From a virus, in the IMG/VR virus record IMGVR_UViG_3300048838_000291, positions 1-42,521 of that record: 42,521 bases of DNA, one strand, 5' to 3'. The translations under genes and the position numbers were made by a program. The notes under the pieces were generated by a model that saw only the letters and a program-made list of their open reading frames with translations, ran no database searches and was not told the DNA's origin. Positions within the stretch are counted from its first letter, which is position 1. Each line of letters begins with the position of its first letter. Below, in pieces: positions 6,172-41,019 of this stretch.

Positions 6172-6389
6172 TGGACCTCCCGCGGCGCCGGCGTCAGAAC
6201 GACGCACGTCACCCGATCGGCCTCAGCGGCCAGCACGAGCTCGAACCCGTCGGTGAAGACGATCCGGCGAACGTCGCTCGACGTGATCCCGCCGGCGGCC
6301 TTGTGCACCTCGTGCTCGACGTAGGCGACTCGCTTGCCCTCGAGCAGCTGCAGCCGCGGGTCGCGGCGGGACTTCTTGCGCGCCGCCAT
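6168..6389 (-). CDS. Hypothetical protein (73 aa)
   Basis: The 73-residue product starts MAARKKSRRDPRLQLLEGKRVAY; the basic N-terminus is followed by a beta-rich domain (VRRIVFTDGFELVLAAEADRV). The ATG at 6389-6387 shares a base with the upstream stop and its own stop overlaps the downstream start. The pattern suggests a small beta-barrel or a nucleic-acid-binding fold, but this is weak. Confidence 0.6.
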   Translation of the reverse strand: MAARKKSRRDPRLQLLEGKRVAYVEHEVHKAAGGITSSDVRRIVFTDGFELVLAAEADRVTCVVLTPAPREVQ

Positions 6390-12072: not shown

Positions 12073-12076
12073 TGGT

Positions 12077-12502
12077 TCACCGCTTCAGATCGGCCTCGAC
12101 CCGAACGACACGCTCGGACACTTTGGCCAGGTTCTCTTTCAGCGTGTCGAGCTTCACGCTCAACGTCGCCATGTCCGACCGCAGCCACGACGGCCCTTCC
12201 GCGGCGATCATGATGCGCTGTTCGAGCGCCGACAGCTTCTGCTGCGCCTCGAGCGCGGTAATGCGGGTCTGCTCGATCGTCAAGACGCGTTCGCCTAGCG
12301 TCAGCTGGTAGACGAGCACGCCAACGGTGACCGGCACGACGAAGCGCACCGCGACGTCCCAAAACCGATCGGCCGCGGTCTTGTGTCTCGACGCCGCCGC
12401 CGTGGACGTCGCGGCTTCGATCTTCGCCATGATGTCGCGTTCCAGCCGCGCAATCACCGCGGCGACGTCGTTCGGAATCGGCATTGTGGTTGGGTTTGTC
12501 AC
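12077..12502 (-). CDS. Membrane protein with coiled coil, possible holin-like
   Basis: The 141-residue product has an N-terminal helix, a single hydrophobic segment near residues 52-68 (FVVPVTVGVLVYQLTL) and a long C-terminal coiled coil (ITALEAQQKLSALEQRIM, LSVKLDTLKENLAKVSERV). The first ATG (12502) overlaps the upstream stop; a second ATG at 12484 follows the leader CAACCACA seen before two other genes. Proteins of this layout occur in phage lysis cassettes, but holin function is not shown. Confidence 0.6.
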   Translation of the reverse strand: MTNPTTMPIPNDVAAVIARLERDIMAKIEAATSTAAASRHKTAADRFWDVAVRFVVPVTVGVLVYQLTLGERVLTIEQTRITALEAQQKLSALEQRIMIAAEGPSWLRSDMATLSVKLDTLKENLAKVSERVVRVEADLKR

Positions 12503-12951
12503 GGGTGCAGCGCGTCGACTGCGTTCGCCAGTTCTTGGACGTTGCTAGGCCGCGAGGAAGTAAGGGCCCCGGTCCAGCTTGAGCTATCGAGCGTGACGTC
12601 TTCGCCGACGTGCGCGTGCCCGGCGTCGGCCTTCAGGCTCAACAGGAACAGGACGCTTCCGATCAGAGAATCGATCGCTGCATCGACTTCGGTCGCTCGC
12701 GTCAGCTGGTTTGTGCCGGGCGCCGCAGCGACGGAGCTCGTCGGCGCGGCCGTCGTGAACGCACCGGCGGCCGACAGCACGTATTGCGCGGTGCGCGCCA
12801 TGCGCAGCACGTCGGCGGCGTTGACGCGGATTGCGAGCTCACCCTTGCCGGTCGTGATGACGAGCGTTCCGCCGTCGATGCGGCGCACGCTGCCGGCGAT
12901 CAGGCATTGGTCGCCCTCGCTGATCGTCTGCCCGCTGTAGTCGACGGCCAT
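12499..12951 (-). CDS. Probable virion structural protein (150 aa)
   Basis: The 150-residue product begins MAVDYSGQTISEGDQCLIAG, has a beta-rich first half (GGTLVITTGKGELAIRV) and an Ala/Ser/Thr-rich second half with SLKADAGHAHVGEDVTL, which resembles the collar or repeat tracts of tail fibres. It lies between two structural genes of the tail-tip region. No family was recognised. Confidence 0.62.
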   Translation of the reverse strand: MAVDYSGQTISEGDQCLIAGSVRRIDGGTLVITTGKGELAIRVNAADVLRMARTAQYVLSAAGAFTTAAPTSSVAAAPGTNQLTRATEVDAAIDSLIGSVLFLLSLKADAGHAHVGEDVTLDSSSWTGALTSSRPSNVQELANAVDALHP

Positions 12952-12961
12952 CGCGCGCCCC

Positions 12962-13591
12962 TCACTCGATGTCGATGTGAGCCCGGAACCGTGTCAGCGT
13001 CGCGGTCGGACTGCCGACGTAGGTCGCCACTAGCTCGAGCAGATCGAGCTCGGCGACGTTGGCGTTCTGGTTCGGCACGTAGACCAGTGCCTTGTTCGCC
13101 GTGAACTCGACGCCGCCGCCGACGCCGCCCAGCGCCGTGAAGGTGCCGACGGCGCCGGAGAACAGGTCGACGGGCGAACCCGGCGTCGCGTTCGGGTAGT
13201 TCTTCAGGGCGAAGCGGACCTCGTTCCCGCTGCTCGAGGTCGAACCGGCCGCACTCACCAGCACGAGCCGCTTCACGGTGCCGGCGCGCGGCATGGTGCC
13301 GATCCATTCCGTCTTCGTTGCTGACAGCGTGCCGGCCCACCCTTCCGCCGTCACCTGCTGCGCCAGGTCCGCCGTCAGCCTGGCGACCTTGAGCCAGCCG
13401 CTGTTGGCGCCGTTGCGGACCTTCAGCCAGCCCGTCGACGTGTCCGCCCACGTCATGTACGCGACCAGCGACGGCGGTTCCGTCGCGCCGCTGTGATGCG
13501 TGCGCAGCGCCTCGAGCGACGCCGGGATCTTCGTCTTGACCGCGACGCCCAGCACGTCGCTACCGCTCGGCACTTGCCACGTTTGGACCAT
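12962..13591 (-). CDS. Probable tail-associated structural protein (209 aa)
   Basis: The 209-residue product contains two near copies of a short WLKV unit (STGWLKVRNGANSGWLKVAR), then a jelly-roll-like beta-rich C-terminus (RLVLVSAAGSTSSSGNEVRF, DLLELVATYVGSPTATLTRF). The content fits a minor fibre or baseplate-periphery protein. It is encoded directly after the J-like tail tip gene and 35 bp from it. Assignment is from context and composition. Confidence 0.6.
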   Translation of the reverse strand: MVQTWQVPSGSDVLGVAVKTKIPASLEALRTHHSGATEPPSLVAYMTWADTSTGWLKVRNGANSGWLKVARLTADLAQQVTAEGWAGTLSATKTEWIGTMPRAGTVKRLVLVSAAGSTSSSGNEVRFALKNYPNATPGSPVDLFSGAVGTFTALGGVGGGVEFTANKALVYVPNQNANVAELDLLELVATYVGSPTATLTRFRAHIDIE

Positions 13592-13626
13592 CGGGGGGAG
13601 CTTCCTTCAGGGAGTCGGGAACCGGT

Positions 13627-16600
13627 CTACAGGTGCGCAGAGTACCGGAGCTCGGACACCTGCACGCCCCAGGAAACCGCCTCGCGGTTCAGCGTCACCC
13701 GCGCCTGCATCTTCTGCGCGACGACGACGCGGTCCTCGTGCGGCTTCCAGTCCGACCACACGGAATCGACCTCGAACCTGGACTCGACAAGCGCGCGCGT
13801 GTGCGTGCCAGGTTCGCCGATGTGACCGCCGACGAGCAGCGTCGCCGGCGAGTCCTCGACGGTCCAAATCGCCTCGTCGACCAGCAGCTGCCAATCGTGG
13901 CCAGGTGCGTATGGCGACGCCGGCCGCGTGTCGACGGTGCGCCAGGTCGCTTCGCCGCTGCCAACCTCGAACACGGCCTCGTCGACGGTCAGCGCGTCGG
14001 CCTCGAGCGCATCGCAGACGACGCGCCAGAACGCCGGCGCCTGGTAGCCCAGGTCCAGGGCCTCGGCGGTGTAGGTGCCGGCGACCTCGTCGGCCTCGAG
14101 CTCGAGCACGCCCTCGCCGGCGTTCCACTCGGTCCCGTCGTGCGTCCCGCTCGGCGTCGTTGCCGTGTCGTCGTGGCTCTCGACCTCGATCGTGCCAGGC
14201 GGCGACCAGGCCGGCGCCGGCAGAGTCACGCGCGGGCCGTACAGCCCCGATCGACTGCGCGGCGCCACCTGCAGCGGCAGGTCGGGCGGCGCCGTCAGGC
14301 GCACGCGCGGCGCGCGGCCGCGGTAGAGCGTCCGGGCCGCCGGCCAGTGCGAGCCCGCCCGCAGTTCGTAGTACTCGAGGTCCCGCTGCTCGATGTCGTC
14401 CCACGCGATCAGCAGATCGCCGCCCAGGTTCACCGCGCGCGCGCCGGTGACCTCCGGGAGCGCGATCCGGGAGAACTCTTCGGCGAAGATGGTTGCGGCC
14501 GTTCCGTCCGACACGGCGCCCCACTGGCCATCGATGCCGCGCTGCACGATCGCGACCTCGTACGGCCGGCCTGGCCGAACGGCGTCCGTGTCGATCCTGG
14601 TGTCGTCGGTCTGGCCGAGCAGTTCGAACTCGCCGGCGTCGCTGCGTGCGTAGACGCGCACCGGTTGCGTTGCGATCGAAGAGTCGGGCGACTCCCAGCC
14701 GATCGTCGTCGTGCCGGCGGGTCCGCTGATCGTCTTCACGTTGCGCACCGGATCGGGGATCAGGGAGCGCAGCGCCACCGCCGGAGTGCTCTGCAGGCCC
14801 TCCCACTCCGATTGCGTCAGCACGTCGTGCACTTCCGGCACCCACTGCACCGCGCGAACCTGGCGCCGCATGTCGCGCTGCAGGGTCAGCGAGACGATCT
14901 GATAGTGCTCGGTGAGCTTGTCGACCAGGCCGACGACGCACTCGGTGCCGGCGACCAGGTCGACGGGGTCGCCGTCGACGGTGACCAGGCAGCCGGGCCG
15001 GCCTCCGACCTCGACGTTCAGGAACGACGCCACGCCGCGCGTCATCGGCTCGCCGTCGGGAAGTCGGAACACGATCTGCAGGCCCGTTCCGGCGAGTGCG
15101 TGATCGATCGCGACGACGTTCGTCGCCTCAGAGTCGAGCAGCATCACGCCGGCCATCGGCACGTCGTCAGCGAACGGCCGCAACAGGTCGTGCTGGAACG
15201 CGAACACGTCGCCGACCTCGGCCGCGAGCGCCCACGGGCCGGTCGTGAACGCGATCTCGCGGCGAATCTTCGACTGCACGCGGTGCCGGAACTTGCCCTC
15301 GCGCCACAGCTGCGCGGGCCGCGTGACGCCGAACGCCTGGATCGCGTCGACAATCCATGCGTCCTTGTGCAGCGTCGCCGGGTTGTTGAGCGTGCTCTCG
15401 TCGTCCTCGACCGGAAGCACGTCGTTGGCGTAGTCGCGGTCTTCGTTGAGGAACTGGAAATGGAACACCGTCGCGCGCGCGTGCTTCGGCAGCCAGTTGA
15501 CTTGCACGTCCTCGACGTTTGCCGACGTGAACAGTTGCGAAACGGCCTTGGCCGGAACCGTGATCCCGGCGTCGCCGTGCGCGTCGCGGTACTGGTAGGC
15601 CACGGACAGCTTGCCGTTGCGCCAGATCGGGGTCGCCCGGCCGGCCGCGCAGATCGCCAGGACCCACTCCCAGGCAGGTTTCGCGACGTCGCCGACCAGG
15701 TCGACACAGAACGACGGCTCGCCCCACGGGTCCGCCGGGTTCGGGTCAGAGTCGCAGAACGCCGCCCATCGACGGAACGCCGGCCAGTCGATGCGTTCGT
15801 CCGTTATGAAGCTGCCGAGCCCCCACCGCTGCGTCAGGAAGTCGGCCAGGCACCATGCCGGGTTGCGGCCCGGCGGGTGCTGCATGAAGTCAAACGGCGC
15901 GGCCGGAACGTCCCAGCACGGTTCAGAGAACCCGTGAGTCGCGTCCCACACGCGAACGCGGCTCCCCTTGCAAACGACCACGATGTTCGGGAAGCCACCC
16001 GACGCGATCGACGTCGCCTCGAGCGACAGGCCGAACAGGGCCAGGCCGGAGTAGGCGAACTGGTGCCGCCCCTGCACGACGATGCTATGAACGACCGTCG
16101 TGTCGACCGTGCCGACGGACGCGACGAAGGTATTGCGCACCACCCGCACGTCGATTGGCCCGCTGGTGCCAGCCGGCAGCGCGTAGGACTGCGTGACGCC
16201 GACCGGCAGCTGCGTTGCGCCGTTCTGCGTGAACGTGCCGAGACTCGACCAGGCCTGGCCGGCGACCGAACTCGGCCGCCAGCTGATGTCGAACGCCACC
16301 GTGGTCTGCTGCAGGTTGCCGGTCGGGTCGAGCATGTACAGCCCGCCAGGCCATGACAGCGTGACCTGCACCTGCGCGATTCCTTCCGTGGTTCCGAACG
16401 TCGTTACCGACGTGTCCCCCTGCACCGTCAGCTGATCGTTGGGCGCGGCCGTGATCGAAGCACCGACGAACGGCGCCGGCAGTTCTTGCTGGTCGAGCGT
16501 GCCCGGCCGGATGTAGGCACGGGTCGAATCGTTGAACGGGCCGGCGAACGGCAGCCGAACGCCGTTGACGAACACGCCGGTCGGCAGGGGCGACACGAAG

Positions 16601-27314: not shown

Positions 27315-28241
27315 CTACGTGAGCTCGGTCCGCGTCGCCAGTTCGAAGCGGCCCAAGGCCGCCTGGCCGACACGCTTCGCGCCGAACGCGACGGAGTCCT
27401 TCCAGAACCCGTTGTCGCTCTCGGCGCCCAGCGTCTTGAACGCGTCCGACAGTTCGCGTTCCTGCCACAGCAGCGCGCGCACGTTCGCATCGGTGCGGAA
27501 CGTGTGGATGCGGCGACCGGCGGCCGCGGCCGTGCCGGTGAGCCTGGCGTTCGCCGCGATCTGGATGTCGACGCCGGCGTTGATCAGCGTGTTGGACACG
27601 CCGGCCGACGTGAACTGGTTCTGCTTCGCCGCGACGGCAGCCGACCAGAACTTCGGCGGGACCATGACCAGGAACGACATCGCGTCTTCGTTGACGGGGT
27701 CGCCGTTCTCGTCCTTGAACCCCATCTGCGCCTGGATCGCGAGGAGGATCGCCTTCGCCATCTCGGCCGACGTCGGGTCGTCGGGATCGGCGACGTCGAG
27801 CGTCAGGAGGTTCTGCGCGGTGCCGTACTTGACGTGCGTCCCGTAGAACGCGACGCCGTCGTAGGCCGTGCCGTTCGCCTCGAGCAGTTCGGAGATGATC
27901 CGGTCGGGCAGGATCGCGGCCTTGCTGCCCAGGTCGCGCACGCGGCCCATCAGCTGGCCGGTCTTGTCCATCGTGACGTCGTCGACGTCGGCCTCGATCG
28001 TGGCCGTGAACTTGTCGTTGACGATCGTCAGCCCCGCGTCGCGCAGCTGCTGGCGTTCGCGCTCGCCGGCCCACTTCTTCATGCCGGGAGCCTGGCCCAG
28101 CCACTTGTAGACCTCGAGCGGTTGGTCGGTCGTGACCATGCTCGCGATCTGCGGCACCCACGAACGGGAAGCGCGCTGCTCGAGCGAAAGGAAGTAGTTA
28201 CCGCGGATGTTGCGGTAGCTCAGTGATTGCACCGTGCCCAT
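27315..28241 (-). CDS. Major capsid protein (Mu gpT-like)
   Basis: The 308-residue product fits the Mu-like major head subunit family: LEVYKWLGQAPGMKKWAGER near residue 42, then GLTIVNDKFTATIEADVDDV, FYGTHVKYGT, FLVMVPPKFWSA and a C-terminal LLWQERELSDAFK. The family has the HK97 capsid fold. It has its own leader with a ribosome-binding site (GAGGACCGAAG) and sits after the protease-scaffold gene. Combining a Mu-type capsid with a lambda-type portal and terminase shows module exchange. It is flanked on both sides by perfect GC hairpins. Confidence 0.88.
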   Translation of the reverse strand: MGTVQSLSYRNIRGNYFLSLEQRASRSWVPQIASMVTTDQPLEVYKWLGQAPGMKKWAGERERQQLRDAGLTIVNDKFTATIEADVDDVTMDKTGQLMGRVRDLGSKAAILPDRIISELLEANGTAYDGVAFYGTHVKYGTAQNLLTLDVADPDDPTSAEMAKAILLAIQAQMGFKDENGDPVNEDAMSFLVMVPPKFWSAAVAAKQNQFTSAGVSNTLINAGVDIQIAANARLTGTAAAAGRRIHTFRTDANVRALLWQERELSDAFKTLGAESDNGFWKDSVAFGAKRVGQAALGRFELATRTELT

Positions 28242-28335: not shown

Positions 28336-29466
28336 TCAATCGGTCTGCGCCGCGTCCAGCTGCGCGCGGGTGCCGTAGTCCTTGCAGCGGTGCTTGTTCC
28401 GGCAGTAGGCCAGCCAGACGTTCTTGTCGCCGCCGAACTCGGCCCGCAGCTTCGCGGACTCGGCCCACTGCACTTCGAGATCGTCCTCGGCGAGCTCGGC
28501 GGCATCGGTGGCCGGCGCCGGCTTCTTGCGCGGCAGGACCTCGGCGCTGTTGCCGGCGGCGAGCGGTTCGGCGGCGGCCGCGGCGGCCGTCGGCTTCTTC
28601 GCCGCCAGCCGGACCTTCAGGTCCTGGTTCAGCTGCAGCAGCGCATCGGACAGCGCGACGCCATCGGCGATCAGCTTCCGCGCGAGCTCGATCTGTGCGT
28701 CGGCGGCGGATTCGAGGATCACGTTCGCACGCTTGCGCTCGGCCTCCGCGGCGTCCTGCGTCAGCTTCGCCGAATCGACTTCGGGAACCGCCGGGGCGGG
28801 GGCCGCGGCGACGGGAGCGGCGTTCGCCGCGGGTTGCTTGGTCGTCATGTTCTCGTTCAGGGAAAGGACCGCGACCACTTCGCCGGCGTCGGCCGACAGC
28901 GAGGTAGCGGAAGTGTCGTCGTCGACACCCAGCGCCGTGAAAGTCACTTCGCGCAGGGTGCACTCTCGAAAGATCACGCCGGGGCCGACCATCGTTCCGC
29001 CGTTCAGTTCGGACTCTTCGCCTTCGGCCAGGCGGAGCACCTTGTGCGGCTCGAAGTAGGTCGACGCTTGCCAGGGGAACCCGGCATCGCTGTCGGCCAT
29101 CACTTCGGCGGCCGCTTCACTGTGCAGCATCAAGCTACCCTCGGCGATCAGACCGCGAGTCTTGTCGACGCGCAGTGCGGTCGTGAACCCGACGCGCAGG
29201 TCGGTTCGATGGTTCATCAGCACCGGCAGCTTCTGCTTCATGCGGATTCCGGCCAGGTCGATGCCAAGCTGCCCGTACCACCAGTGCGAAAGCGGCTTGC
29301 CCGACAGCGCGACCATCGAGAACGGGCGGGTCTTCGGTGCCCCTTCGTCGCCCTCGGCCGCCACGGCGGCCGCGAGCTCGATCGGCGTCAGCGCCTGCAG
29401 GTAGCACGCCTGCAGCGGGATTCGGACTTCCGCGCCTGGCGCGGCCTCGAGCATGGTCGGGTTCAT
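28336..29466 (-). CDS. Prohead protease with C-terminal scaffold domain
   Basis: The 376-residue product begins MNPTMLEAAPGAEVRIPLQA. The N-terminal 200 residues resemble prohead proteases: a likely catalytic His in LPVLMNHRTDLRVG, a Gly-rich turn, a likely Ser in FPWQASTYFEP and TLREVTFTALG. Residues about 205-320 are Ala/Pro-rich then helical (AERKRANVILESAADAQIEL), as in scaffold proteins. An internal ATG at 28848 could give the scaffold alone, as in lambda C/Nu3. The last 45 residues have WAESAKLRAEFGGDKNVWLAY. The ATG overlaps the portal stop. Confidence 0.78.
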   Translation of the reverse strand: MNPTMLEAAPGAEVRIPLQACYLQALTPIELAAAVAAEGDEGAPKTRPFSMVALSGKPLSHWWYGQLGIDLAGIRMKQKLPVLMNHRTDLRVGFTTALRVDKTRGLIAEGSLMLHSEAAAEVMADSDAGFPWQASTYFEPHKVLRLAEGEESELNGGTMVGPGVIFRECTLREVTFTALGVDDDTSATSLSADAGEVVAVLSLNENMTTKQPAANAAPVAAAPAPAVPEVDSAKLTQDAAEAERKRANVILESAADAQIELARKLIADGVALSDALLQLNQDLKVRLAAKKPTAAAAAAEPLAAGNSAEVLPRKKPAPATDAAELAEDDLEVQWAESAKLRAEFGGDKNVWLAYCRNKHRCKDYGTRAQLDAAQTD

Positions 29467-31160
29467 TCGTCTTCGGCTCCTGCAGCGGCCTTGTCGGCGT
29501 CGCTGTCGTCGGTGGCGTCGTCGTCGGTGGGTTCGTCCTTGGTGTCGGCGTCGTCGTCCGGCGGATCGTCGTCGTCGTCGGCGCCGCCGTCCGCCGGCGG
29601 CGATGGCTCGTTCGGCTTGCGCGTCAGCGCGCCACCCTTGAGCCCCATCTCCTGTTCGATCTTCGCTGCTTCGCGCAGGAACGCACCGCGCTCGCGCAGG
29701 ACCTCGAGCCAGTGCAGACCCTGGCGGCTCGCCTCGATCTGCGGCGTCGAAATGTTCGCGGCGATCGCGGCGTCGCTGCCGGCGGCGTCGGCGACCGGGT
29801 CGACGATTCCGTAGGCCGGCGCCACCCATCGGCACGCCAGGAACGGCCGGTCGTTGTCGACCCAGCGCGGCGACGGCGGCACCAACCGGCCACTGTTGAC
29901 CGCGGCACGGATGACGTTCCGGTACCATGGCCGGTTGAACTGGCGGTTCAGCTTCGAACGCGCCTGGTCGAACCCTCGGCGGACCTCGCGAAGCAGCGTG
30001 CGCGAGCTCGAAAGGTTCATGCGGCCGAAGTCCTTGGCGACCATCTCGTACGCCAGGCCCAGCGACGAGCAGAACGCACGAAGGACGCGCGTCACGAACG
30101 TATCGAACTGCGCGCCGGGCCGGTTCGGCGAGAACGCCACCGGCTCTTCGCCTTCGTTCAGGTACTCGATCGTGCCGGCGTTGAGCTCCTGGTAGTACGT
30201 CTGCCCGGTCGCCTGTTCGTTGTCCTGCACCGGAAACACGTCCTGGTCGGTTTCCGAAAGCGGCCGCCGAATGAACATCGCGTAGTTGCTCGCGGCGCGC
30301 GCGGCGATGAGCTCGGAATCGAGGTAGTGGTGCAGGTGACGCGCGTAGAGCAGCGACGCCGCGGTCCACGGCACGCCGCGCGTCTGCCCGGCGCGGCGCC
30401 GGCGGAACACGTGCTGCACCATGCTGTACTCGCCGGACTCCGCGGCGAGCCGCACCGTCTCGCGGGACGCGTTGTAGCCGAACAGGCTGTCGTCCGGGTG
30501 CCCTCGCATGACGTGGTAGGCGACCGCGCGGCCGTGCGCGTCGAGCTCAACGCCGCCGCGCATCGTGTCCGTGTCGACGTGGTTCGGCGACTCCAGCCGG
30601 TCGACGTCGATCAGTTCGCACGCCAGCATGCCGTCGCCGCCCATCACCGCGTGCGACAGCGTCTCGCCGTCCGACACCCAGCAGCGAACGACGAGCTCCT
30701 GCAGGTCGTAGAAGCTTCCGGTGCCGGTCGCGTCGGCCTCTTCGTCGGACCACCGTTCCCACTCGGCCAGGCAGGCCGCGTTCCACTCGTCACATTGCTT
30801 CTCGGTGAGCCCCGTCGACGCCGGCGTGCAGGCCGGTTGCGGCGTGATGCCGGTTCCGACGATGTTCTCGGCGTGAATGTCCGCGGCGCTGCTGGCGTGC
30901 GCGTCGTCGCGGATCAGCGCGCGCGACAGGTCGCGAAGCGTCTTCAGGTCCGGCAGGATGTCGCCGTCGGCCGAGACGCTGCGCTCGGGCCCGTTGACGC
31001 GCGACACCCGCGCCGCCTCGAACGCGAGCAGCGCGGCAGACTTCACGCGGGCCTTCTGCATCCGGTGCACCAGCTGCGGCGCCAGGATGGACACGGTGCG
31101 GTCGACGGCGCGCGCCAGCTTGCCGGCGATGCCGGCGTAGATCGGTTGTCGTTTCATCAC
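29463..31160 (-). CDS. Portal protein (lambda gpB family)
   Basis: The 565-residue product fits the lambda-type portal family: DLKTLRDLSRALIRDDAHAS near residue 70, WCVSDGETL-like core (CWVSDGETLSHAVMGG), QHVFRRRRAGQTRGVPWTAA near 245, and EQATGQTYYQELNAGTIEYL. It forms the twelve-subunit ring at the head vertex through which DNA is packaged. The last 50 residues are extremely acidic (Asp-rich) and probably disordered. The first codons are ATG ATG, and either may be used. It overlaps both neighbours by four bases. Confidence 0.88.
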   Translation of the reverse strand: MMKRQPIYAGIAGKLARAVDRTVSILAPQLVHRMQKARVKSAALLAFEAARVSRVNGPERSVSADGDILPDLKTLRDLSRALIRDDAHASSAADIHAENIVGTGITPQPACTPASTGLTEKQCDEWNAACLAEWERWSDEEADATGTGSFYDLQELVVRCWVSDGETLSHAVMGGDGMLACELIDVDRLESPNHVDTDTMRGGVELDAHGRAVAYHVMRGHPDDSLFGYNASRETVRLAAESGEYSMVQHVFRRRRAGQTRGVPWTAASLLYARHLHHYLDSELIAARAASNYAMFIRRPLSETDQDVFPVQDNEQATGQTYYQELNAGTIEYLNEGEEPVAFSPNRPGAQFDTFVTRVLRAFCSSLGLAYEMVAKDFGRMNLSSSRTLLREVRRGFDQARSKLNRQFNRPWYRNVIRAAVNSGRLVPPSPRWVDNDRPFLACRWVAPAYGIVDPVADAAGSDAAIAANISTPQIEASRQGLHWLEVLRERGAFLREAAKIEQEMGLKGGALTRKPNEPSPPADGGADDDDDPPDDDADTKDEPTDDDATDDSDADKAAAGAEDE

Positions 31161-34100
31161 CTGAAGAGAACCCGCGTGCGGCGGATGCCGCGGTTGCGCT
31201 GCGCCTCGGCAGCGAAGTACTTCCGCGCGCGCAGCATCTCGTCGAAGCTGCGCATCTGCACCTGGCGGCCGTTGACGGTGTAGCCGCTGACGTCGCCGCC
31301 GGACTGGATCGCTCGATCCAGCATGCCGACGATGTCCTCGACCGTGGCCGGGTCGCCGACCGCGGCCGCCGACGCCGATCCCTCGGGGTCGCCGTCCTCG
31401 CCCTCGATCTCCGCGGCCCGGAGCTCGACCGATGTTCCGGCAGTTCGAAGGTCCGCGCCAACGCCCGTGCCGGACTCCGCGTTGGCGCTGCCGCTAGGGT
31501 GTGAAGGGATCGACGTCAGCGCCTCGAGCTTGAGGTCGACGCGAAAACCGAACTGCACGTGCGCGCGTGCGGTGCGATGCACCCCGTTGTCGCGTCTGTG
31601 TGTTCGTGGCCATGTACCAAGGCTGTCGATCTCCATGGCCAGGTCGCTCGGGTCCGCGACCGTGCAGTTGTCGAGCCCAGCGGCGACCGCGGCCTGCGCC
31701 GCGCGCAGCGAGTCGACCGCGGTGTCATCGTCCGGCATGAACGGCGTCTGCGACGTCGTCTGGCAGATCACCTTCGGCAGCGCGGCGACACCCTTCGCGC
31801 GCAGACCGAACACGGCCTCGAACGCCTCGACGACGCGCGTCAGCGCGTCCTGGAACCCGGCGACGTCGGCGAAGTCGTTGTCGCCCAGGTCGACGACCAT
31901 CCACGCCGGGTACGGGATCAGGTTCAGCGGCGCACACTTCACGAACGCCGTCTGGATCAGCCGCTTGGCTTCCGGGAACAGGGGCGGCGGGCCGGCCTCG
32001 ACGGTCAGCGTCGCCGACTCCGCGAACCCGTTGCCGAGAACTTCGATCCAGCTACCGTCGCCGGCCTTCGCCGTGATGCGGTTCACCTGGTGCGGCGGCG
32101 TGTTGTTGCCGTTCACGCCTTGCACGCCGGCGCTGCCGCTGATCGTCGTCGACAGGTTCACCACCCAGTAAGGGGCCGAGAACGTGCCGGCGGCACCGGT
32201 GAGCCGGATTCGCTGCACGGGGTTCATGCCGTCGGCTGGCAGCGACGTTGCCGTCAGCGACGCGATCACGGACTGGCGCACCGACAGATCGGGATCGAAC
32301 ACGCCGGTCGCGTTCGGGATCGTCGCGTTCGTCGCCGCACCGTTCAGCGCCAGCTTGATCAGGCCTACCTTCGCCGACTCGCCCTCGGTGCGGCTGTAGC
32401 GCATCTTGGTTCGCTGCACGATCGGGACCTCGAACCCGCACGTGCCCTTCGGCGAGCCGTGAAACGTGTTGCTGTTCTGCCCACAGTCCCACGGTTCCCA
32501 CTCTTCGGTGTCGCAGTTGAACGCGATCACGTTCGGGTCGATCGTCGAGACGCCGATGCCGAAACTGCCGGACGGCCACAGGTCCGGGTCGCGATCGAGC
32601 CCGATCATCGCGCCGGTGCCGATGTTGCCGACGGCCTGGCTATGGCCGACGATCAGGCCGACGTGCAGTAGCTCGACCGTGTCGCTGGCGATCGTCGTCG
32701 CCTTGAACGCCAGCGCGCGCCACACGCGGTCGCCGAGCTCGGCGTATCCGTCGGGCGGAAGTCGGCACGCGTCCGGCGTCGGGTCTTCGAGCTCCTGGTC
32801 GCCGCTGCGGATCACCACGACGTTCGGATCCAGCGTCGGCAGCGAGTCGATCAGCTGCAGCAGCACGAACGAGAACGGGAACCCGCCGATCTGGATGTCG
32901 GCCAGGTGAGACCGCATGTTGAACGACCAGACGCCGACGCGCAGGTCCGGGTCGCCGATCTCGTCGCGGAATGCCTCGATGACGCGCAGCCACTCGCGCT
33001 GCATGAGCTCGAGCGACGGCCAGGTCGCGGCACCAGGCGCGAACGTGCCGAGCTCAGTCTCCCACAGGAACAACGCCAGGCCTTCCCACTTCTCAGGCTG
33101 GCCCAGGTAGAGCGCGCCGGAAGTCGCGCGGGCTTTGGCCAGGTCCGCCGCAAAGTCGTTGAAGTAGCGCGAGCCGCGTTGCCAGCCCAACGCCGGCCCC
33201 GTCGCCGTCGCGGTGGCGCCGCTGGTGCTGCCGACGATCGAGCCAGCCGCGAGCGTCTGGCCGTTCGGCGCCGTCACGTAGAGCCGCTTCGTCGTCGGGT
33301 TCCACGCGTGCACCGTCGCCGAGTAGGTGCCGGCCGTGACCGTCTCGCCGACCACCCAGGACGTCGGGAACGTGCCGCTGCACGGGATCGCCTGCACCGT
33401 TACGCCGGCGATGAAGTTGTCCGCCAGCGTGCCGTCCAGGTTCCAGTGCTGGAACAGACGAACGCCGAAGTCGTTCACTTCCAGGCCGGCGCCGTGGTAG
33501 TCGTGCGCCGCGTGCAGCAGCCGGTTCTCCGGTCCGATGTGAACCTGGTTCGCGGCATCCGAACACCCGCGCGGGTCGATCTCATAGTGGGTCGCCTGGC
33601 CGTTCAGGCCTGGCATCGCATGGTAGGGCACCCACGCGCCGACCTGCGGGTTGGCGTTCACGGTGGCGATCGTGCCAGTGCCGGCCGTGCTCGTGTTCGT
33701 GATCGTCTGCGAAGCTGCGATGCTGCCAGCCTGGCGCAGCATGCCGAGCACGTAGTTCGCACCGTCCAGGTCGATGAACTGCAGCGTGAACGAGCCACCG
33801 CCGCTGGTCGAGAACCGGTCGCCGAGCTTCCACGGCGCGCCTACGCCGGACACCGACGCGACCGGAACGACGATCGTCTGCGCCAGCTTGGCGTAGGGGT
33901 CCCAGTACGGCGTGTCGGTCAGGTCCTCGGGAACCGCCTTGTTCCATCGCCGGTCCTTGTGCTGCGGGATGTACTGCGCCGCGCCGGGTGCATGCGTCGC
34001 CGAGAAGTTGAACGGGGCGACGTTGCACGTCGTGCCGTTGTCCAGGTTGACGAGCTCGCCCGGCGTCCACTGCCACGGCGTCAGATCGAGGATCTTCAGC

Positions 34101-34303
34101 ACCCAAACGCCGGTTCCAAGGATGCGGCGCACCATGCCGCGCGCACCGGACACGGTGCCGGTGAGAATCGTCCCGATCGGCGGTGGCGTCACCGGCGGGT
34201 TCAGCGTCGCGAAGTGCTGGCCCAGGATCGGGTCGACGTGCTGCAGCACGGTACCGCGCGCGTGTGTGTCGCCGACGATGCCGTAGTAGTGGGTGTCCGT
34301 CAC
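31157..34303 (-). CDS. Tandem SGNH (sialate esterase-like) protein fused to a gpW-like head-joining domain
   Basis: The 1048-residue product lies where lambda W lies, between terminase and portal. Residues about 985-1048 (DIVGMLDRAIQSGG, VNGRQVQMRSFDEMLRARKY) resemble gpW-type connectors. Upstream is an SGNH/SASA esterase-like domain: nucleophile Ser555 in VGHSQAVGN, GDND at 807-810, and DNGVH at 905-909. Residues 1-540 look like a second, degenerate copy: GDTHA at 11-15 (Thr for Ser), LFLWETELG near 412, DACRLPPDGYAELG at 511-524 (Arg for His), plus beta modules near 43-100 and 318-378. Activity (deacetylation of surface glycan) is inference. The start is GTG with no clear ribosome-binding site. 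Confidence 0.72.
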   Translation of the reverse strand: MTDTHYYGIVGDTHARGTVLQHVDPILGQHFATLNPPVTPPPIGTILTGTVSGARGMVRRILGTGVWVLKILDLTPWQWTPGELVNLDNGTTCNVAPFNFSATHAPGAAQYIPQHKDRRWNKAVPEDLTDTPYWDPYAKLAQTIVVPVASVSGVGAPWKLGDRFSTSGGGSFTLQFIDLDGANYVLGMLRQAGSIAASQTITNTSTAGTGTIATVNANPQVGAWVPYHAMPGLNGQATHYEIDPRGCSDAANQVHIGPENRLLHAAHDYHGAGLEVNDFGVRLFQHWNLDGTLADNFIAGVTVQAIPCSGTFPTSWVVGETVTAGTYSATVHAWNPTTKRLYVTAPNGQTLAAGSIVGSTSGATATATGPALGWQRGSRYFNDFAADLAKARATSGALYLGQPEKWEGLALFLWETELGTFAPGAATWPSLELMQREWLRVIEAFRDEIGDPDLRVGVWSFNMRSHLADIQIGGFPFSFVLLQLIDSLPTLDPNVVVIRSGDQELEDPTPDACRLPPDGYAELGDRVWRALAFKATTIASDTVELLHVGLIVGHSQAVGNIGTGAMIGLDRDPDLWPSGSFGIGVSTIDPNVIAFNCDTEEWEPWDCGQNSNTFHGSPKGTCGFEVPIVQRTKMRYSRTEGESAKVGLIKLALNGAATNATIPNATGVFDPDLSVRQSVIASLTATSLPADGMNPVQRIRLTGAAGTFSAPYWVVNLSTTISGSAGVQGVNGNNTPPHQVNRITAKAGDGSWIEVLGNGFAESATLTVEAGPPPLFPEAKRLIQTAFVKCAPLNLIPYPAWMVVDLGDNDFADVAGFQDALTRVVEAFEAVFGLRAKGVAALPKVICQTTSQTPFMPDDDTAVDSLRAAQAAVAAGLDNCTVADPSDLAMEIDSLGTWPRTHRRDNGVHRTARAHVQFGFRVDLKLEALTSIPSHPSGSANAESGTGVGADLRTAGTSVELRAAEIEGEDGDPEGSASAAAVGDPATVEDIVGMLDRAIQSGGDVSGYTVNGRQVQMRSFDEMLRARKYFAAEAQRNRGIRRTRVLFR

Positions 34304-34339: not shown

Positions 34340-34585
34340 TCAGTCCGAATCGCGCTGCGGTTCCGGGATCGCGCCGCGCCAGTTGCTGACCTGCGCTGCG
34401 TCGATCTCCCACGATCGGTACTTCGTTCCGCACGCCTGGCATTGATGCGAGCGGATACGGCCGCGCACGTTGAACGTGAACGGCTTGTGCCGGCCGCATT
34501 GTGGGCAGCGGAACGGCAGGAACGCGACGACCGGCAGGTGCTCGTCGGGAACGTCGTCGGTGTCGGCTTGTCGTCGTGTAACCAT
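34340..34585 (-). CDS. Zinc-ribbon protein (Com-like), 81 aa
   Basis: The 81-residue product has two knuckles, CPQCGRHKP at 27-30 and CQACGT at 49-52, forming a four-cysteine zinc ribbon, with a strand FTFNVRGRIRSHQ between them. Small zinc ribbons of this kind are often encoded beside terminase genes in phages. The start overlaps the terminase end by one base. The TGA stop is followed by C and by an open frame that runs into the esterase-like gene 12 codons later, so stop readthrough would join the two. Confidence 0.75.
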   Translation of the reverse strand: MVTRRQADTDDVPDEHLPVVAFLPFRCPQCGRHKPFTFNVRGRIRSHQCQACGTKYRSWEIDAAQVSNWRGAIPEPQRDSD

Positions 34586-36477
34586 CAGCGCCCGCCCAGG
34601 GTCGGAAAGCGCGGCCCGCGGCGCCGCTGGTTCTGCTGTCGTCGCGGCGGCGGCGCCGTCGCGTCTGGTGCCGGCCGCTTCGCGAACTGCTTTCGCTCGG
34701 TGCGCAGCGTGTCGATGCGGCTCAGTCGTGCGGCCGCGGCCTGGTAGACCTGCAGGTCCCAGGCCTCGTTCCGCTGGTGTCCAGGTTTCTTCACCCAGCG
34801 CATCGCCTCGCGGTTGCCGCTGCGCTGCTTCACCTTGTGCTCGCTGGCCAGCTGCTTCAGCGACGCCGCATCGAGATCAGACGGGAGCCATAGGCGACCG
34901 GCGCGGCTCTCCGGTTCGGCCAGCGCCTGTTGCATGCGCTGCGCGATCAGGTCCTTGAACCAGTCCACGTTCACGGTCCAGACGGTCATCGAGTTTGGTA
35001 GCGGCGCGCCGGTGCGCGGGTGCTTGTCGAGCTTCTTCGTGCCGAACGGCACGGAGCCCTCGCGCTCCACGCCGGCAATCATGCGCGCCACCGGTTGCCA
35101 GTCGCGGCAGAAGTCCAGAACCTCGGGGCGGCGGTAGCGGGAGTCCACAAGGCAGCAGTGAACCCGCAGCTGCTGCGGCCCGTACAGGTTGCGAAACAGG
35201 ATGTCGCCGAGCTCGTTCCAGTCGTTGGTTCGGCCGACGCCGACGAGCCATGATTCTTCGTCCATGCCCCAGGCCTGCAGGTGATACTCCATTCGGTCGA
35301 CCTGGACGTCGACGGTGGCCGTGATCGCCTTCGCGTCGGCCGGAACCTCGCCGAGCTTGTGCGTGCCGACGCACGCCGTGACCGCGGCGTCGGTCGTGTT
35401 CTGCACGCGTTCCTCCCAGACCTCGGCCAGCCAGCTATTCACGAAGTTTTGAAACCGCTTCGGCACGTCGCGCGACGCCATCCACTTCGCGACGATCTGC
35501 CACCACTGCACCCACGGCGAGTACGCCGCCCACAGGTGATAGCTACGGTGCGGGTGCCGTTCTTCTTTGCTCTCGACGTTGCGCCACTGCATCGCGTCGT
35601 GGCCTGTCGGCACCCACCAGCCGCGCGCCAGCATCTCGATCTTGCCGCGGTCGTCGATCTGCTGCTCGCACCGTGCGCACTCGTACCAAGCGTGCCGCGC
35701 GTCTTCCATCTCGCGCGCGGTCGTCACGGTCGCCTTGTCCCACTTCACCCGGTGCCACTCGAACACCTGCAGCCACTGGCAATGCGGACACGGCACCCAG
35801 TAGCGCCGCTGGTCGCCGTCCTCGAATAGCTGGCAGATGTTGCCGTCGCGCGTCGTCGGCGTCGACGCGCACACGATCAGGTGATCGTAGAACGTGCGGG
35901 TTCGTTCCTCGAGCAGATCGAGCGGCGACGCTTCCTTGCCGGACCAGTCGGGGAACTTGTCGACTTCGTCGGCGCAGACCAGGCGCACAGGCACCGACGC
36001 CAGATCCGCCGGCGACTGCGCCGCGCGCAGGTAGACGATGCACCGGCGGAACACCATCTCGCGCGTCTGCAGGTCGTCCTGACGTCCGGTGCGTTGCTCG
36101 CGCAGCGACGCCGACGCCTCGACCATCGGCAGCAGCCGGCGCTGCATGGCCAGCTTCGCGTCGTCGCGCCGCGGCATCACGAGCATGATCGGGCAGGGGT
36201 CGTGCTGGATGTGGTAGCCGATCAGGTTGTTCAGTGTCTCGGTCTTGCTGACCTGCGTTCCCGTCATCAGCGACAGGTGCCGGACCCAGCGGCAGTTCGC
36301 GGTGTCCATCCACTCGCGCGCGTAGGGAACGCGTGACGTCTGCCACGGGCCCGGCTCCGCGTTGAACGACGAATCGAGGAACCGGTGCGCGTCGGCCCAC
36401 TCGCTAACCGTCACCTGCGGTTTCGGCGTCCAGGTCCGCCAGATCGTCGGGTCCGTCATCAGCGACGGGGTCCTCAT
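34585..36477 (-). CDS. Terminase large subunit (lambda gpA family)
   Basis: The 630-residue product has the gpA-type ATPase: MTGTQVSKTET (Walker A, near residue 72), MLVMPRRDDA, and VRLVCADEVDKFP (Walker B, near 165), then STPTTRDGN (motif III). A zinc knuckle follows (CPHC near 232, CARC near 270), typical of the family, and a nuclease domain with TATVDVQVDRMEYH and CLVDSRYRRPEVLDF. The Walker A has Ser where most relatives have Gly. gpA-family enzymes usually cut at cos sites. The first ATG overlaps the small subunit gene; MTDPTIW at 36459 is an alternative start. Confidence 0.93.
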   Translation of the reverse strand: MRTPSLMTDPTIWRTWTPKPQVTVSEWADAHRFLDSSFNAEPGPWQTSRVPYAREWMDTANCRWVRHLSLMTGTQVSKTETLNNLIGYHIQHDPCPIMLVMPRRDDAKLAMQRRLLPMVEASASLREQRTGRQDDLQTREMVFRRCIVYLRAAQSPADLASVPVRLVCADEVDKFPDWSGKEASPLDLLEERTRTFYDHLIVCASTPTTRDGNICQLFEDGDQRRYWVPCPHCQWLQVFEWHRVKWDKATVTTAREMEDARHAWYECARCEQQIDDRGKIEMLARGWWVPTGHDAMQWRNVESKEERHPHRSYHLWAAYSPWVQWWQIVAKWMASRDVPKRFQNFVNSWLAEVWEERVQNTTDAAVTACVGTHKLGEVPADAKAITATVDVQVDRMEYHLQAWGMDEESWLVGVGRTNDWNELGDILFRNLYGPQQLRVHCCLVDSRYRRPEVLDFCRDWQPVARMIAGVEREGSVPFGTKKLDKHPRTGAPLPNSMTVWTVNVDWFKDLIAQRMQQALAEPESRAGRLWLPSDLDAASLKQLASEHKVKQRSGNREAMRWVKKPGHQRNEAWDLQVYQAAAARLSRIDTLRTERKQFAKRPAPDATAPPPRRQQNQRRRGPRFPTLGGR

Positions 36478-36955
36478 GCGCCGGGACCTCGAGCCCGTTC
36501 TCGAGCCCGCGCCGAATCGAATCGACCTCGGTCCGCAGCTGCTCCTCGATCCACTCGACCGACGGCGCCTGGAACAGACGCACGGCCATCTTCTTCACCA
36601 GGTCGTTGAGCCGCATCCCGACGGCGCCGAACGCCGCGGTCGCGAACGCCACGACTTCGGACCGCTTCACCAGCAAGCCGCGCGCGTGCAACAGGTCGAG
36701 CTTCGATCGCAGCGCGAGGTACTTCTTGCGCTCGGTCGTCCAGTAGTCGTCGACGGAACGAGCCGACGCCGGCGCGCCGGGCCCAGGCTTCTTGAGCTTG
36801 CGCCACTCGTGGTACTTGACGAGCCAGGCCTTCACGTCGGACTTGCGCCGCGGCGTCGGCGCGCCGTCGCGCACGTGTTCCTTCCAGGTCGTCAGCGACA
36901 CGCCCGCGAGCTTCGCCAGCTGCGGCGCCGGCAGCGCGTGCTTCGTTGCTGGCAT
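36404..36955 (-). CDS. Terminase small subunit (Nu1-like)
   Basis: The 183-residue product begins MPATKHALPAPQLAKLAGVS, a helix-turn-helix (LAKLAGVSLTTWKEHVRDGA) like that of Nu1-type small subunits, followed by a helical middle (DDYWTTERKKYLALRSKLDL) and an acidic tail. It should bind the packaging site and present it to the large subunit, which overlaps it by 74 bases downstream. A GC-tract region that may be cos lies just upstream, as in lambda. Confidence 0.75.
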   Translation of the reverse strand: MPATKHALPAPQLAKLAGVSLTTWKEHVRDGAPTPRRKSDVKAWLVKYHEWRKLKKPGPGAPASARSVDDYWTTERKKYLALRSKLDLLHARGLLVKRSEVVAFATAAFGAVGMRLNDLVKKMAVRLFQAPSVEWIEEQLRTEVDSIRRGLENGLEVPAHEDPVADDGPDDLADLDAETAGDG

Positions 36956-37700: not shown

Positions 37701-37870
37701 TGTCGCCCTCGCAGGATCTCGCGAGTGTGCTTGCGGCAGTAGATCGACAGCCCCACAGCGTGCCGAAAGCACCAACGCCGATCGCATCGCAGCGGCGGCG
37801 GCGGCATCAGCACGATGCCCAGCGCGATCGCGCACCAGCACACGACACACGCGATGCCATCGTCGATCAC
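37697..37870 (-). CDS. Small membrane or Cys-rich protein (57 aa)
   Basis: A GTG at 37870 overlaps the TGA of the large secreted-protein gene. The 57-residue product starts with a hydrophobic Cys-containing helix (IACVVCWCAIALGIVLM) and continues with a basic part holding more cysteines (CDRRWCFRHAVGLSIYCRKH). It may be a membrane protein with a metal-binding tail. Being short, it is supported mainly by coupling. Confidence 0.5.
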   Translation of the reverse strand: MIDDGIACVVCWCAIALGIVLMPPPPLRCDRRWCFRHAVGLSIYCRKHTREILRGRQ

Positions 37871-40800
37871 TGGTGCGCGTCCCACATTGCCCCTTGCCAC
37901 GTCGACCAGGATCGGTGCCACGCGTCCGAGAACGGCGCCGCCATGTAGCGGTCCATGTAGTCGAAGAACGGCTGGTGCCCCCACGCGTCCACGAGCCCCA
38001 TCGTGCGCATCGTCAGCGTGACACCAGGCCACGCGTTCGCCGAGCAGCATCGGCGGTAGTTGTTGGCCAGCCAGTCGCGTGAGTCCGCGGCGATGTCGTG
38101 TTGCGAACCGTTCGCATGAAAGTTGCCCCACTCGGGCAGGCCCACGTCGGCAGCGGTGTAGCCACCGAACCCCCAGTTGAAGACGCCTGGCGACGTCTCG
38201 GCGACGTAGAACGTTTGCCCGTCCTCGGACCACCACACCGGCACGTTGAGCGGATGATCAGGGCCGAAGAACTGCACGGGCTTGGCGATGCCCAGCATGC
38301 GCGGCTCGTCGAGCATGCGACCAGCGAACAGGATCGGGAACTTGCGTCCGTTGCAGTGCCCGTTGACGCCCCAGGGTTGCCCTACTTCGTTGCAGCCCCA
38401 CCAGTCGATGCCCACCTGCAGGAAGCGAATCAAAAGCGGCCTTTTCGCGGCGTCGGTGTAGTCGCAGTTGAGCAGCAGCCCCGCATCGCCCGTAAGCGTC
38501 GTGAAGTCGCGGTAGTAGCTCGGCATGTTGTCTGCGGGATGCATCCGCCCGCTGGTCCAGTGCGGACAATGGTCGAGCCAGACACGTTCGAACGCCGCGG
38601 CCGTGGCCGTCATCGACGGTGCGCCAGGTGCTGGCGCCAGGTGCGCTAGCCTGGCCGTGTCGACCTGGCTCAGTCGAAACAGGTCCTTCGGCCCGGTGTA
38701 GGGCGGCCGGAACGCGTCCGCCGGCGGCACCGCATCGAGCACGGTCAGCACGGCCGCCGTCTTGATCTCGCTCGGTGAGCCGGACGGATGCGGCCCCACC
38801 TGCGAAATGGTGGACACCAGCGAAGAACGACCGGTGATCTCGAGCGGCAAAGCGGCGGCGACATTCAGGGCCGGCACGTAGACGCGTTGGTCGGCGCTGT
38901 ACTGGCCGTACAGGGCGGAGTCGTAGCCGTGCGCACCGGTCATCGGCGGGTTCAGCATCGAGCCGTTGACGATGCGGCCGCCGCCGATCGTCGCCGTCGG
39001 TGGCTCGATGCTGGTCACGGTGACGGGGCCGACCACCCACCAGTCGCCGTTGACGAACTGGCCCGCCGGCGCCGGCGCGGCGAAGGTCCAGGAGATGCCC
39101 CACTGGCTCACGCTCAACACGCGCGGCGTCGTGTCTGGCGGCGGCGGCGGCGGCGGGATCGGACCAGGCGGCACCCAGGAGCGGCGACCGTTGCCAAGGT
39201 CGCCCATGATCTGCTGCCAGATCGCCCGGGCCTTCGTGTGGCCAGGCTGTTCGCGCAGGACGACGAAGACGGCCGGCACGTCCCAAGTCGTTTCGAACCA
39301 CGGATCAGGCCAGGCGCGGCCGTCGTACGCCGACGGCGGCGGGGGCGGAAACTCGATGTTGCCGACGCCATGGTAGCGCCCTTGCTGAAGGATCCAGTTG
39401 TGGTCGATGCACGCCAGCGCAGCGCGCAAGGCCAGCGAGCGCGCCGCCTCGATGCCGAACACGTCGCCGGCGAGCCACAGGCCGTACGCGCCGATCGACT
39501 GCTGCCAGGCCATCCAGCGAAGGCCAGGTCCGAGCCGAACGTCATCGCGCACGTCCCACACGTCGAACGGCTTCGTACCCAGCTGCGGCACGTAGACCAT
39601 CGACACCCGCTCGAGGTAGCGCGCGCGCACGCGTTCGGCCAGCGCGCGGTCCTCGAGCTCGCGCCACAGCTGCACAGCGACGATCCCGGCCCACCCGACG
39701 CTGCGTGCCGCATCGGCGCCGCTGGTGCTGTAGCCAGGCCGCACCGTCTCACCGAACAGGAACGCGCGCGCGTGCTGCTGTAGCTCCCACTGCAGCGCCG
39801 GCGACTCGACCAGGCGAGCACCGGCGGCCAGGGTGCCGATCAGCCAGTGCTCGCGGTCCTGCGCGGTCCATCCGTAGTCGGGATCGGGCAGCGGGCCAGG
39901 CTTGCCCAGCTGGTCCGGCGAAACCCCGGTGTGCCAGTGCGGCCGGCCAGACCAGAACACGCAATGCGGGTGCTCGGCCGGATCGGCCTGGCGCCCGCTC
40001 GCTTCCAGGTGATGCGACGGCCGCGACAGCCACTCAAGCGCCGAAAGGTAGGCGACCAGTTCGGCCCCTTCGCCGCCGGCATGGAACGACTCGCCGCGCA
40101 CGAACACCTGGTCCTCCTGCGCCCCCGTGTCGCCGCTGCTGGCGTTGGCGCCGACCACCCCGTTCTCCCATGTGTGCAGGCGCCGCAGCGCCTCGGGGAA
40201 CAGGTTCCGCGTCCAGGCGATCGGGTCGAATCCAGGCGGATCGGACGGCGTGCCGTGCGGCAGCAGCTGCGCGATCCCGTGCCCGCACGTGGTGAGCCCG
40301 ACGGCGGCCGCCAGGCGGACCCATGCCTGCGTTTCGTCGGCGGAGCCGAAGATGTGGCGCGGCCACCCGATCGCGAACGGTACGCCTCGAGCCTGGCCGT
40401 CGACGAAGCGGGTTCCGCCAGGCACCAGCGGCGCGCCCCATCCGGCGCCAGGCACGCCGACCATGCCGTCGCCGAACGTCAGCGCCAGGCCGCCAGGCGG
40501 CGCCGTCGCGGCCATGTCCGGGATCGATCCGTTGCTGCAGGTGATCACGGCCTCGCCGACGACCGTCGTCGGCTCGTCGGGATACCACCTGGCCCACACG
40601 TCGGCGTGCAGCATCGGCGACACCCGCCCCTGCAGCCGCACCGTCAGCGCGGCGCCGTCGGCGGCGAGCTCGACCAGCTGCAGCGGTACGCCGCCCACGG
40701 CCAGCCAGCCGCCGAAGTAGTCGAGCGGTGGCAGCGTGACCGGAGGCGGCGCGGCCGCGCTCGACGCGGCGAGGTCGATCGCGCGGCGTTCGCCGGCCGC

Positions 40801-41019
40801 GAGCTCGAGGTGCAGGTCGACGGCCCACGTGTCGAGCCCCGTTCGCCGGCCGAGAACGAACCGCGTCGTGCCGATCGTGCCGGCGGCGTGCGGCGGCCTC
40901 GTGTCGACCTTGTACCGCTTCCACCCGACGAACGGGGCGGCGCTGTTGTTGGCGACGTGCACCACCTGCGCGAACGCGGTGGCAGCGAACAGGAACACGG
41001 CGAACAGGGTTCGGATCAT
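37867..41019 (-). CDS. Large secreted two-module protein of unknown function (1050 aa)
   Basis: The product begins with a clear signal peptide (MIRTLFAVFLFAATAFAQ), so it is exported from the infected cell. Module A (about 20-615) starts beta-rich (FVLGRRTGLDTWAVDLHLEL) and continues as a large helical part with many Trp and His (HWLIGTLAAGARLVESPALQ; WMAWQQSIGAYGLWLAGDVF), like an alpha/alpha toroid of polysaccharide-active enzymes. A linker of Pro residues (617-630) leads to module B (630-1050), rich in Trp, Gly and Cys (WWVVGPVTVTSIEPP; NGSMLNPPMTG). I know no family for either. The ATG has AAGGAAGGGAAG upstream and overlaps the previous stop. Confidence 0.75.
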   Translation of the reverse strand: MIRTLFAVFLFAATAFAQVVHVANNSAAPFVGWKRYKVDTRPPHAAGTIGTTRFVLGRRTGLDTWAVDLHLELAAGERRAIDLAASSAAAPPPVTLPPLDYFGGWLAVGGVPLQLVELAADGAALTVRLQGRVSPMLHADVWARWYPDEPTTVVGEAVITCSNGSIPDMAATAPPGGLALTFGDGMVGVPGAGWGAPLVPGGTRFVDGQARGVPFAIGWPRHIFGSADETQAWVRLAAAVGLTTCGHGIAQLLPHGTPSDPPGFDPIAWTRNLFPEALRRLHTWENGVVGANASSGDTGAQEDQVFVRGESFHAGGEGAELVAYLSALEWLSRPSHHLEASGRQADPAEHPHCVFWSGRPHWHTGVSPDQLGKPGPLPDPDYGWTAQDREHWLIGTLAAGARLVESPALQWELQQHARAFLFGETVRPGYSTSGADAARSVGWAGIVAVQLWRELEDRALAERVRARYLERVSMVYVPQLGTKPFDVWDVRDDVRLGPGLRWMAWQQSIGAYGLWLAGDVFGIEAARSLALRAALACIDHNWILQQGRYHGVGNIEFPPPPPSAYDGRAWPDPWFETTWDVPAVFVVLREQPGHTKARAIWQQIMGDLGNGRRSWVPPGPIPPPPPPPDTTPRVLSVSQWGISWTFAAPAPAGQFVNGDWWVVGPVTVTSIEPPTATIGGGRIVNGSMLNPPMTGAHGYDSALYGQYSADQRVYVPALNVAAALPLEITGRSSLVSTISQVGPHPSGSPSEIKTAAVLTVLDAVPPADAFRPPYTGPKDLFRLSQVDTARLAHLAPAPGAPSMTATAAAFERVWLDHCPHWTSGRMHPADNMPSYYRDFTTLTGDAGLLLNCDYTDAAKRPLLIRFLQVGIDWWGCNEVGQPWGVNGHCNGRKFPILFAGRMLDEPRMLGIAKPVQFFGPDHPLNVPVWWSEDGQTFYVAETSPGVFNWGFGGYTAADVGLPEWGNFHANGSQHDIAADSRDWLANNYRRCCSANAWPGVTLTMRTMGLVDAWGHQPFFDYMDRYMAAPFSDAWHRSWSTWQGAMWDAHQ

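Follow-up and report, generated by a model that had tools for sequence, protein, structure and literature searches.

Phage esterases and depolymerases are found at tail tips, on tail spikes and on separate neck-attached fibres, and the phages of Planctomycetota are almost uncultured. In lambda and in most phages the head-tail adaptor gpW is a stand-alone protein of 65–80 aa. Lambda gpW forms a 12-fold ring whose C-arm binds the portal (PMC10721106). The adaptor of phage R4C is a dodecamer located outside the capsid, and its N-terminal extension is an Ig-like attachment domain that also lies outside the capsid (PMC10276861). SGNH deacetylases are common in the receptor-binding proteins of phages (PMC13123978, PMC9569702), and N4-like phages carry esterase-bearing fibres hung from a collar round the adaptor, such as gp53 of phage DEV (PMC10925440). 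No enzyme fused to a gpW adaptor, or built into the neck, is described in the literature that we searched, which lay mostly outside subscription journals; within that literature, the direct esterase-adaptor fusion reported here is new.

Results

The stretch of DNA analysed here (the window) is a 42.5 kb IMG/VR virus record with a G+C content of about 69%. It displays a minus-strand siphovirus gene set comprising the terminase subunits, portal, head maturation protease (a match to PHROG 3244), capsid, tape measure and a gpJ-like tail protein, and all window coordinates given below refer to the minus strand. The small terminase subunit (36404–36955; PHROG 57, E 3e-11) and the large subunit TerL (34585–36477; Pfam GpA_ATPase E 2e-66, GpA_nuclease E 5e-54) are followed by an 81-aa zinc-ribbon protein (CPQC..CQAC; 34340–34585), which is kept across the planctomycete clade described below with about 51% identity in contigs L092 and L175. 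The fusion gene (31157–34303) lies between this TerL/zinc-ribbon pair and the gene of a lambda-family portal protein (29463–31160; Phage_portal_2, E 6e-86). The preliminary description had the coordinates of the gene right as well as its place between terminase and portal, with the Pfam matches to TerL and portal on either side; the gene is on the minus strand, and the plus-strand translation of the same interval contains internal stops. Besides, the major capsid protein (27315–28241) is of the Mu gpT type despite the lambda-like terminase and portal. Directly upstream of the small terminase gene, positions 37867–41019 encode a 1050-aa protein that appears to have a signal peptide (MIRTLFAVFLFAATAFAQ) and has counterparts in the L092 contig (48% identity along 611 aa) and in L175 (33% along 466 aa); towards its C terminus it matches PHROG 34846, a family of unknown function, and no Pfam match was found.

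The fusion gene is a single ORF encoding a 1048-aa protein of 111 kDa, with a GTG start and a stop that overlaps the portal start by 4 nt. The protein displays a degenerate SGNH domain, a SASA-type esterase domain, a linker and a gpW-type adaptor domain. The linker (residues 938–984, 31352–31492) is rich in Gly, Ala, Ser and Glu and shares 17% identity with the L092 homologue, and GC3 is high in both the linker (0.85) and the gpW part (0.94), in keeping with a steady coding signal. No in-frame start is conserved ahead of the adaptor helix, and an internal start yielding free gpW was thus rejected; likewise, no conserved cleavage motif was seen in the fused chains. A signal peptide is not evident at the N terminus, where the chain opens with an SGNH-like motif. 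In the fused loci no separate gpW was seen between TerL and portal, which leaves the fusion as the sole candidate for the adaptor.

Direct searches with the window protein in IMG/VR, INPHARED and the PDB returned no match, and direct scans with TerL and portal were likewise unsuccessful; the clade was opened by TerL alignments only. A pair of planctomycete TerL sequences recovered 16 contigs from IMG/VR with terminases 45–60% identical, and eleven distinct contigs among them (L233 and L234, which look alike, being counted once) carry a long ORF ending in gpW. Together with the window and two MAG contigs (L092 and L174), this amounts to 14 fused loci in one terminase clade, the 13 proteins other than that of the window being 653–1144 aa long. 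An assembly chimera or a frameshift fusion was rejected, since the fusion is common to 14 distinct loci.

Three layouts were observed. Layout A, of about 1050–1144 aa with a dead and a live domain, is found in the window, L092, L229, L230 and L231; layout B, of 653–710 aa, has a single SASA domain, whose GQSN, GESD-like and VH motifs are near-canonical, and occurs at seven loci; layout C, of 742–763 aa, again has a dead and a live domain (L174 and L239). The homologue in L092, a Planctomycetota MAG, has 1055 aa and is 37% identical over the full length including the adaptor, and the structural genes of its contig are colinear with those of the window. In L238, whose esterase motifs are canonical, one ORF passes the curated cut-offs of both Pfam SASA and NCBIfam phage_HTJ. 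In L244, on the other hand, a type-A enzyme and gpW are encoded by adjacent separate genes joined by a TGAcATG junction. A lone gpW is present in L175, L240, L241 and L243, the gpW of such sister phages being 69–84 aa long. In the TerL tree, L175 and L243 fall beside L092 while L240 and L241 fall beside L239; this nesting of lone-gpW phages within fused lineages points to repeated loss, gain or exchange of the module. All sequences of the clade come from metagenomes or MAGs. The assignment of the host to Planctomycetota rests on the binning of the L092 MAG, and L174 and L175 come from genomes of the same class.

The preliminary description had recognised a W-like C terminus, which the following comparisons bear out. 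The adaptor domain (residues 985–1048, 31157–31351) ends in a clade-conserved GIRRTRV.F C-arm. Taken alone, the last 70 aa match PHROG 2545, 'head-tail adaptor Ad1' (E 1e-5), and PHROG 118 (E 1.6e-3), while the match of the C terminus to NCBIfam phage_HTJ (NF047331; E 2.9e-5, 23.7 bits) lies below the cut-off of 33 bits, which the adaptor end of L238 passes with 33.2 bits. An independent profile of 145 gpW rows from TerL-portal loci, from which planctomycete rows were excluded against circularity, retrieved the window C terminus with E 2.7e-7 in a set of 16,933 ORFs, and a planctomycete sister phage's gpW, which stands alone, with 3e-9; E-values from such small custom databases are rough. As in lambda, the ~64-aa homologous domain sits in the TerL-portal locus and displays a beta-hairpin NGR motif and a C-arm, but in the window it makes up only the last 6% of a 1048-aa chain. 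In a full-length AlphaFold run, whose pLDDT of just 31 confines its use to a remark on secondary structure, the predicted elements are helix 988–1001, strands 1005–1010 and 1013–1017, and helix 1020–1037. Weak PDB matches to a transcriptional regulator and to interferon gamma were treated as chance. A search with a DNA pattern of the GIRRTRV tail returned nothing, most of the relatives found later reading GLRRTKV.

Among 146 surveyed gpW loci, 111 encode short proteins and 34 proteins with N-terminal extensions of about 45–130 aa; more than 400 aa ahead of the gpW domain were seen in the planctomycete case only. The adaptor of roseophage R4C (PDB 8GTD, PHROG 5774) resembles the window protein in having a C-terminal gpW-type tube domain and an extra N-terminal domain, and a profile match of A6 to 8gtd_M was obtained at E 0.015. 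In contrast, the R4C extension is Ig-like, structural and about 106 aa long, whereas that of the window is an esterase module of about 940 aa, and the N-terminal region of the window protein gave no match to PHROG 5774.

Domain 2 (residues 541–937, 31493–32683) is predicted to have the fold of SASA-type carbohydrate O-acetylesterases. Together with two first-found homologues, it matches a profile of cellular planctomycete SASA proteins (hhalign 99.4%, E 6e-22), to which it is homologous. Pfam SASA (PF03629) does not match the window protein itself; its cut-off is passed by the relatives L230, L232, L236 and L238 (32.6 versus 24.8 for the last). Given the 99.4% profile-profile match of the type-A domain and the unmet Pfam cut-off, we filed domain 2 as a divergent SASA relative. 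An AlphaFold2 model based on a 16-sequence alignment (pLDDT 73, pTM 0.78) matched 9ega, 2apj, 1zmb and 3pt5 in Foldseek with probability 1.00, so that the second domain is of the SGNH type, as had been proposed. Among solved structures, the model comes closest to a CE20 acetylesterase, AT4G34215 from Arabidopsis, an acetylxylan esterase and NanS (3pt5), and the list includes a phage tailspike. The top viral match, from Rhodobacter phage RcapNL, was set aside as an ordinary tail protein, the only gene of 651-aa size in that phage being located among its tail genes. Domain 2 shares with the SASA, CE20 and CE6-type enzymes the fold, the Ser, the Gly, the GExD motif and the His, and differs from them by an Asn at position -3, by a large beta insertion (around residues 688–744, where model confidence is low) and by its fusion to a dead copy and to gpW.

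The candidate nucleophile S555 (GHSQAVG; 32639–32641), invariant in all compared relatives, and the candidate catalytic H909 (NGVH; 31577–31579) are both invariant in the 16-sequence alignment. G655 (32339–32341) is the block II glycine of the oxyanion hole, and D810 (31874–31876) aligns with the Asp of the SASA block III motif GESD. The GHSQA, GDND (807–810) and DNGVH (905–909) motifs listed in the preliminary description are thus literally present, but the Asp of DNGVH stands at -4 from the His and not at the usual -3 position, which is occupied by N906, and GDND, although the counterpart of GESD, varies among relatives (GDND, AEGD, AESD, GESD, GEVD). The -3 residue is Asn in five type-A proteins and Phe in the sixth, and the Asp is also missing in the cellular SASA relatives L186 and L188. 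Since Asn takes the usual DxxH position, domain 2 would rely on a Ser-His dyad or on some variant of the triad; with this replacement and a variable block III, the activity of the type-A proteins could be weak or lost. Nevertheless, each of the 15 esterase domains retains the nucleophile Ser and the catalytic His, while the remainder of the domain diverges to 20–40% identity; these residue counts combine alignments with an inspection of motifs in the divergent proteins of types B and C.

Domain 1 (residues 1–540, 32684–34303) is a degenerate SGNH/SASA domain with beta-rich insertions. Its opening GDTHARG has the shape of block I with Thr (T13, 34265–34267) at the Ser position, while Arg (R514, 32762–32764) stands in place of the block V His. 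A domain 1 profile of six type-A homologues matched cellular SASA proteins with E 1.2e-4 and a hhalign probability of 55%; the match keeps its register across blocks III to V and scores 44.5 against 21.8 for the best shuffle, a score reached by 0 of 60 column shuffles. A SASA ancestry of domain 1 is supported by these profile comparisons; the full-length AlphaFold run gave no confident model of this domain. At the nucleophile position, the six type-A proteins have T once, G four times and A once, and the two type-C proteins, read by eye, have W and N, so that none of the eight two-domain homologues has the catalytic Ser (by alignment or inspection). With such residues in place of the Ser, domain 1 is a long-dead copy. 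The Ser-to-Thr and His-to-Arg changes had been correctly noted. As for its reading as a duplicate, a recent within-gene tandem duplication is not supported: direct similarity between the two domains is almost nil (hhalign probability 1.8%, 2.7% with deeper profiles). The overall picture of a tandem SGNH module on a gpW-like adaptor, with one candidate active and one dead domain, was upheld, the fusion being kept clade-wide.

Other genes were observed near TerL and portal. In L241, a sister phage with a stand-alone gpW, a separate 552-aa ORF (2666–4324) between TerL and gpW has a lipoprotein-like signal sequence, matches nothing in Pfam and is possibly another surface enzyme. Wolbachia phage WO (L006) carries an unfused gene annotated as lysozyme M1 (6038–6733), a further wall-active enzyme, between a gpW-like gene and the portal. 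The TerL-portal interval is also an insertion hot spot in unrelated phages (L054:9346–10248, L154:10039–11160, L077:10009–11262, L010:10283–11047), with inserts that include DNA methylases of the cytosine and adenine types and a beta-barrel protein of the outer membrane; these large genes were rejected as gpW fusions because they are separate genes. In the prophage-like Omnitrophota locus L088, a repetitive 837-aa protein (11409–13922) directly precedes an extended gpW of 167 aa (13925–14428), and the two may be a neck-fibre pair.

Discussion

A single reading frame joins domains homologous to SASA esterases and to gpW, the fusion is present at 14 loci, and the active-site Ser and His are conserved. 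Our main reading, to which we give a probability of roughly 0.6, is that the protein is a lambda gpW-type head-tail adaptor with a large N-terminal carbohydrate-esterase module, forming a 12-fold neck collar of glycan O-deacetylases. The C-terminal 64 residues would adopt the usual alpha-beta-beta-alpha adaptor fold with its C-arm, and twelve copies would bind beneath the portal via gpW. With twelve copies at this position, 12 esterase modules of about 104 kDa each would hang around the neck by the flexible linker; by analogy with R4C, they would lie outside the capsid of the virion at the site of the Ig-like domain. Domain 2 would act as a Ser-His SASA-type esterase, most likely stripping O-acetyl or similar acyl groups from planctomycete surface glycans, and this deacylation may aid the particle in adsorbing to, moving through or detaching from the glycan layer. 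Domain 1, as a dead copy of the fold, may bind glycan, or space and dimerise the active domains. Since sister phages lack the module, it would be dispensable for neck assembly, and its removal by proteolysis while the particle is assembled is conceivable. The more specific proposal, that this planctomycete siphophage clade carries an active glycan O-deacetylase in the adaptor ring, with 12 catalytic and 12 dead paralogous domains per virion, has in our estimate slightly better than even odds.

The alternatives, from more to less likely, are glycan binding in the manner of a lectin, separation of the enzyme from gpW by cleavage, and a structural role. That the neck-borne module is a glycan-binding adhesin in which domain 2 catalysis is vestigial appears unlikely, although several observations favour it. 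Domain 1 is dead in 8/8 two-domain proteins, a fold retained without catalysis; in domain 2 the -3 Asp has become Asn in 5/6 type-A proteins and block III drifts. The neck passage structures of 936 lactococcal phages bear carbohydrate-binding modules (PMC6669499), and LPS hydrolase activity was not detected for DEV virions (PMC10925440). Against a purely binding role stand the retention of Ser and His in 15/15 divergent esterase domains and the near-canonical motifs of the single-domain type-B proteins, and the Asp is likewise missing from the cellular SASA relatives L186 and L188.

It is more doubtful still that the chain is a polyprotein cleaved at the linker, with gpW and an enzyme free in the lysate or the cell acting apart. 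The linker is long, of low complexity and weakly conserved (17% identity), a head maturation protease (PHROG 3244) is among the genes of the phage, and the two parts are separate adjacent genes in L244, so that linkage is not obligatory. More such splits would be expected if linkage were immaterial, whereas the fusion is retained at 14 loci in three layouts, with neither a conserved cleavage motif, an internal start nor an evident N-terminal signal peptide. Least probable is a structural function, in which the module would seal the junction of capsid and neck or make it more stable, in the style of the R4C Ig-like domain, the esterase fold having been recruited as a scaffold. Extensions of about 45–130 aa in 34 of the 146 surveyed gpW proteins, and the contact of the R4C extension with the capsid (PMC10276861), would fit such a role; a module of 600–1000 aa is well beyond the size needed, keeps its active-site residues and is wholly missing from sister phages.

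The preferred reading of an esterase collar has precedents. The preliminary description had called the neck an unexpected place for an enzyme; the direct fusion is new, yet the surprise was overstated in view of the Ig-like decoration of gpW in R4C (PMC10276861) and the esterase gp53 of N4-like DEV (PMC10925440), which make a neck placement less unexpected. In N4-like phages (DEV gp53, Possum gp66) an esterase or deacetylase is likewise displayed from a collar round the head-tail adaptor, but the fibre is a separate trimeric protein bound to the adaptor by a different anchoring domain, whereas the esterase of the window is fused to it. Such fibres have a collar barrel at the N terminus and a trimeric coiled coil; the window chain opens with its SGNH-like motif. 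The neck passage structure of 936 lactococcal phages also places carbohydrate-active modules at the neck, as we propose for the window, but as binding modules on BppU-like coiled-coil fibres and without a gpW fusion.

The three module layouts, the one split state and the several module-free sisters would make this locus an exchangeable enzyme slot, with the N terminus of gpW as a site at which a virion connector tolerates fusion. If the reading as an esterase collar is true, these phages would have a fixed 12-fold enzyme display beside the capsid, which would suggest that contact with glycans remote from the tail tip is of importance, perhaps for particles embedded in a thick layer of glycan or leaving the lysed cell. 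The fusion is thereby a rare functional clue on the phages of Planctomycetota.
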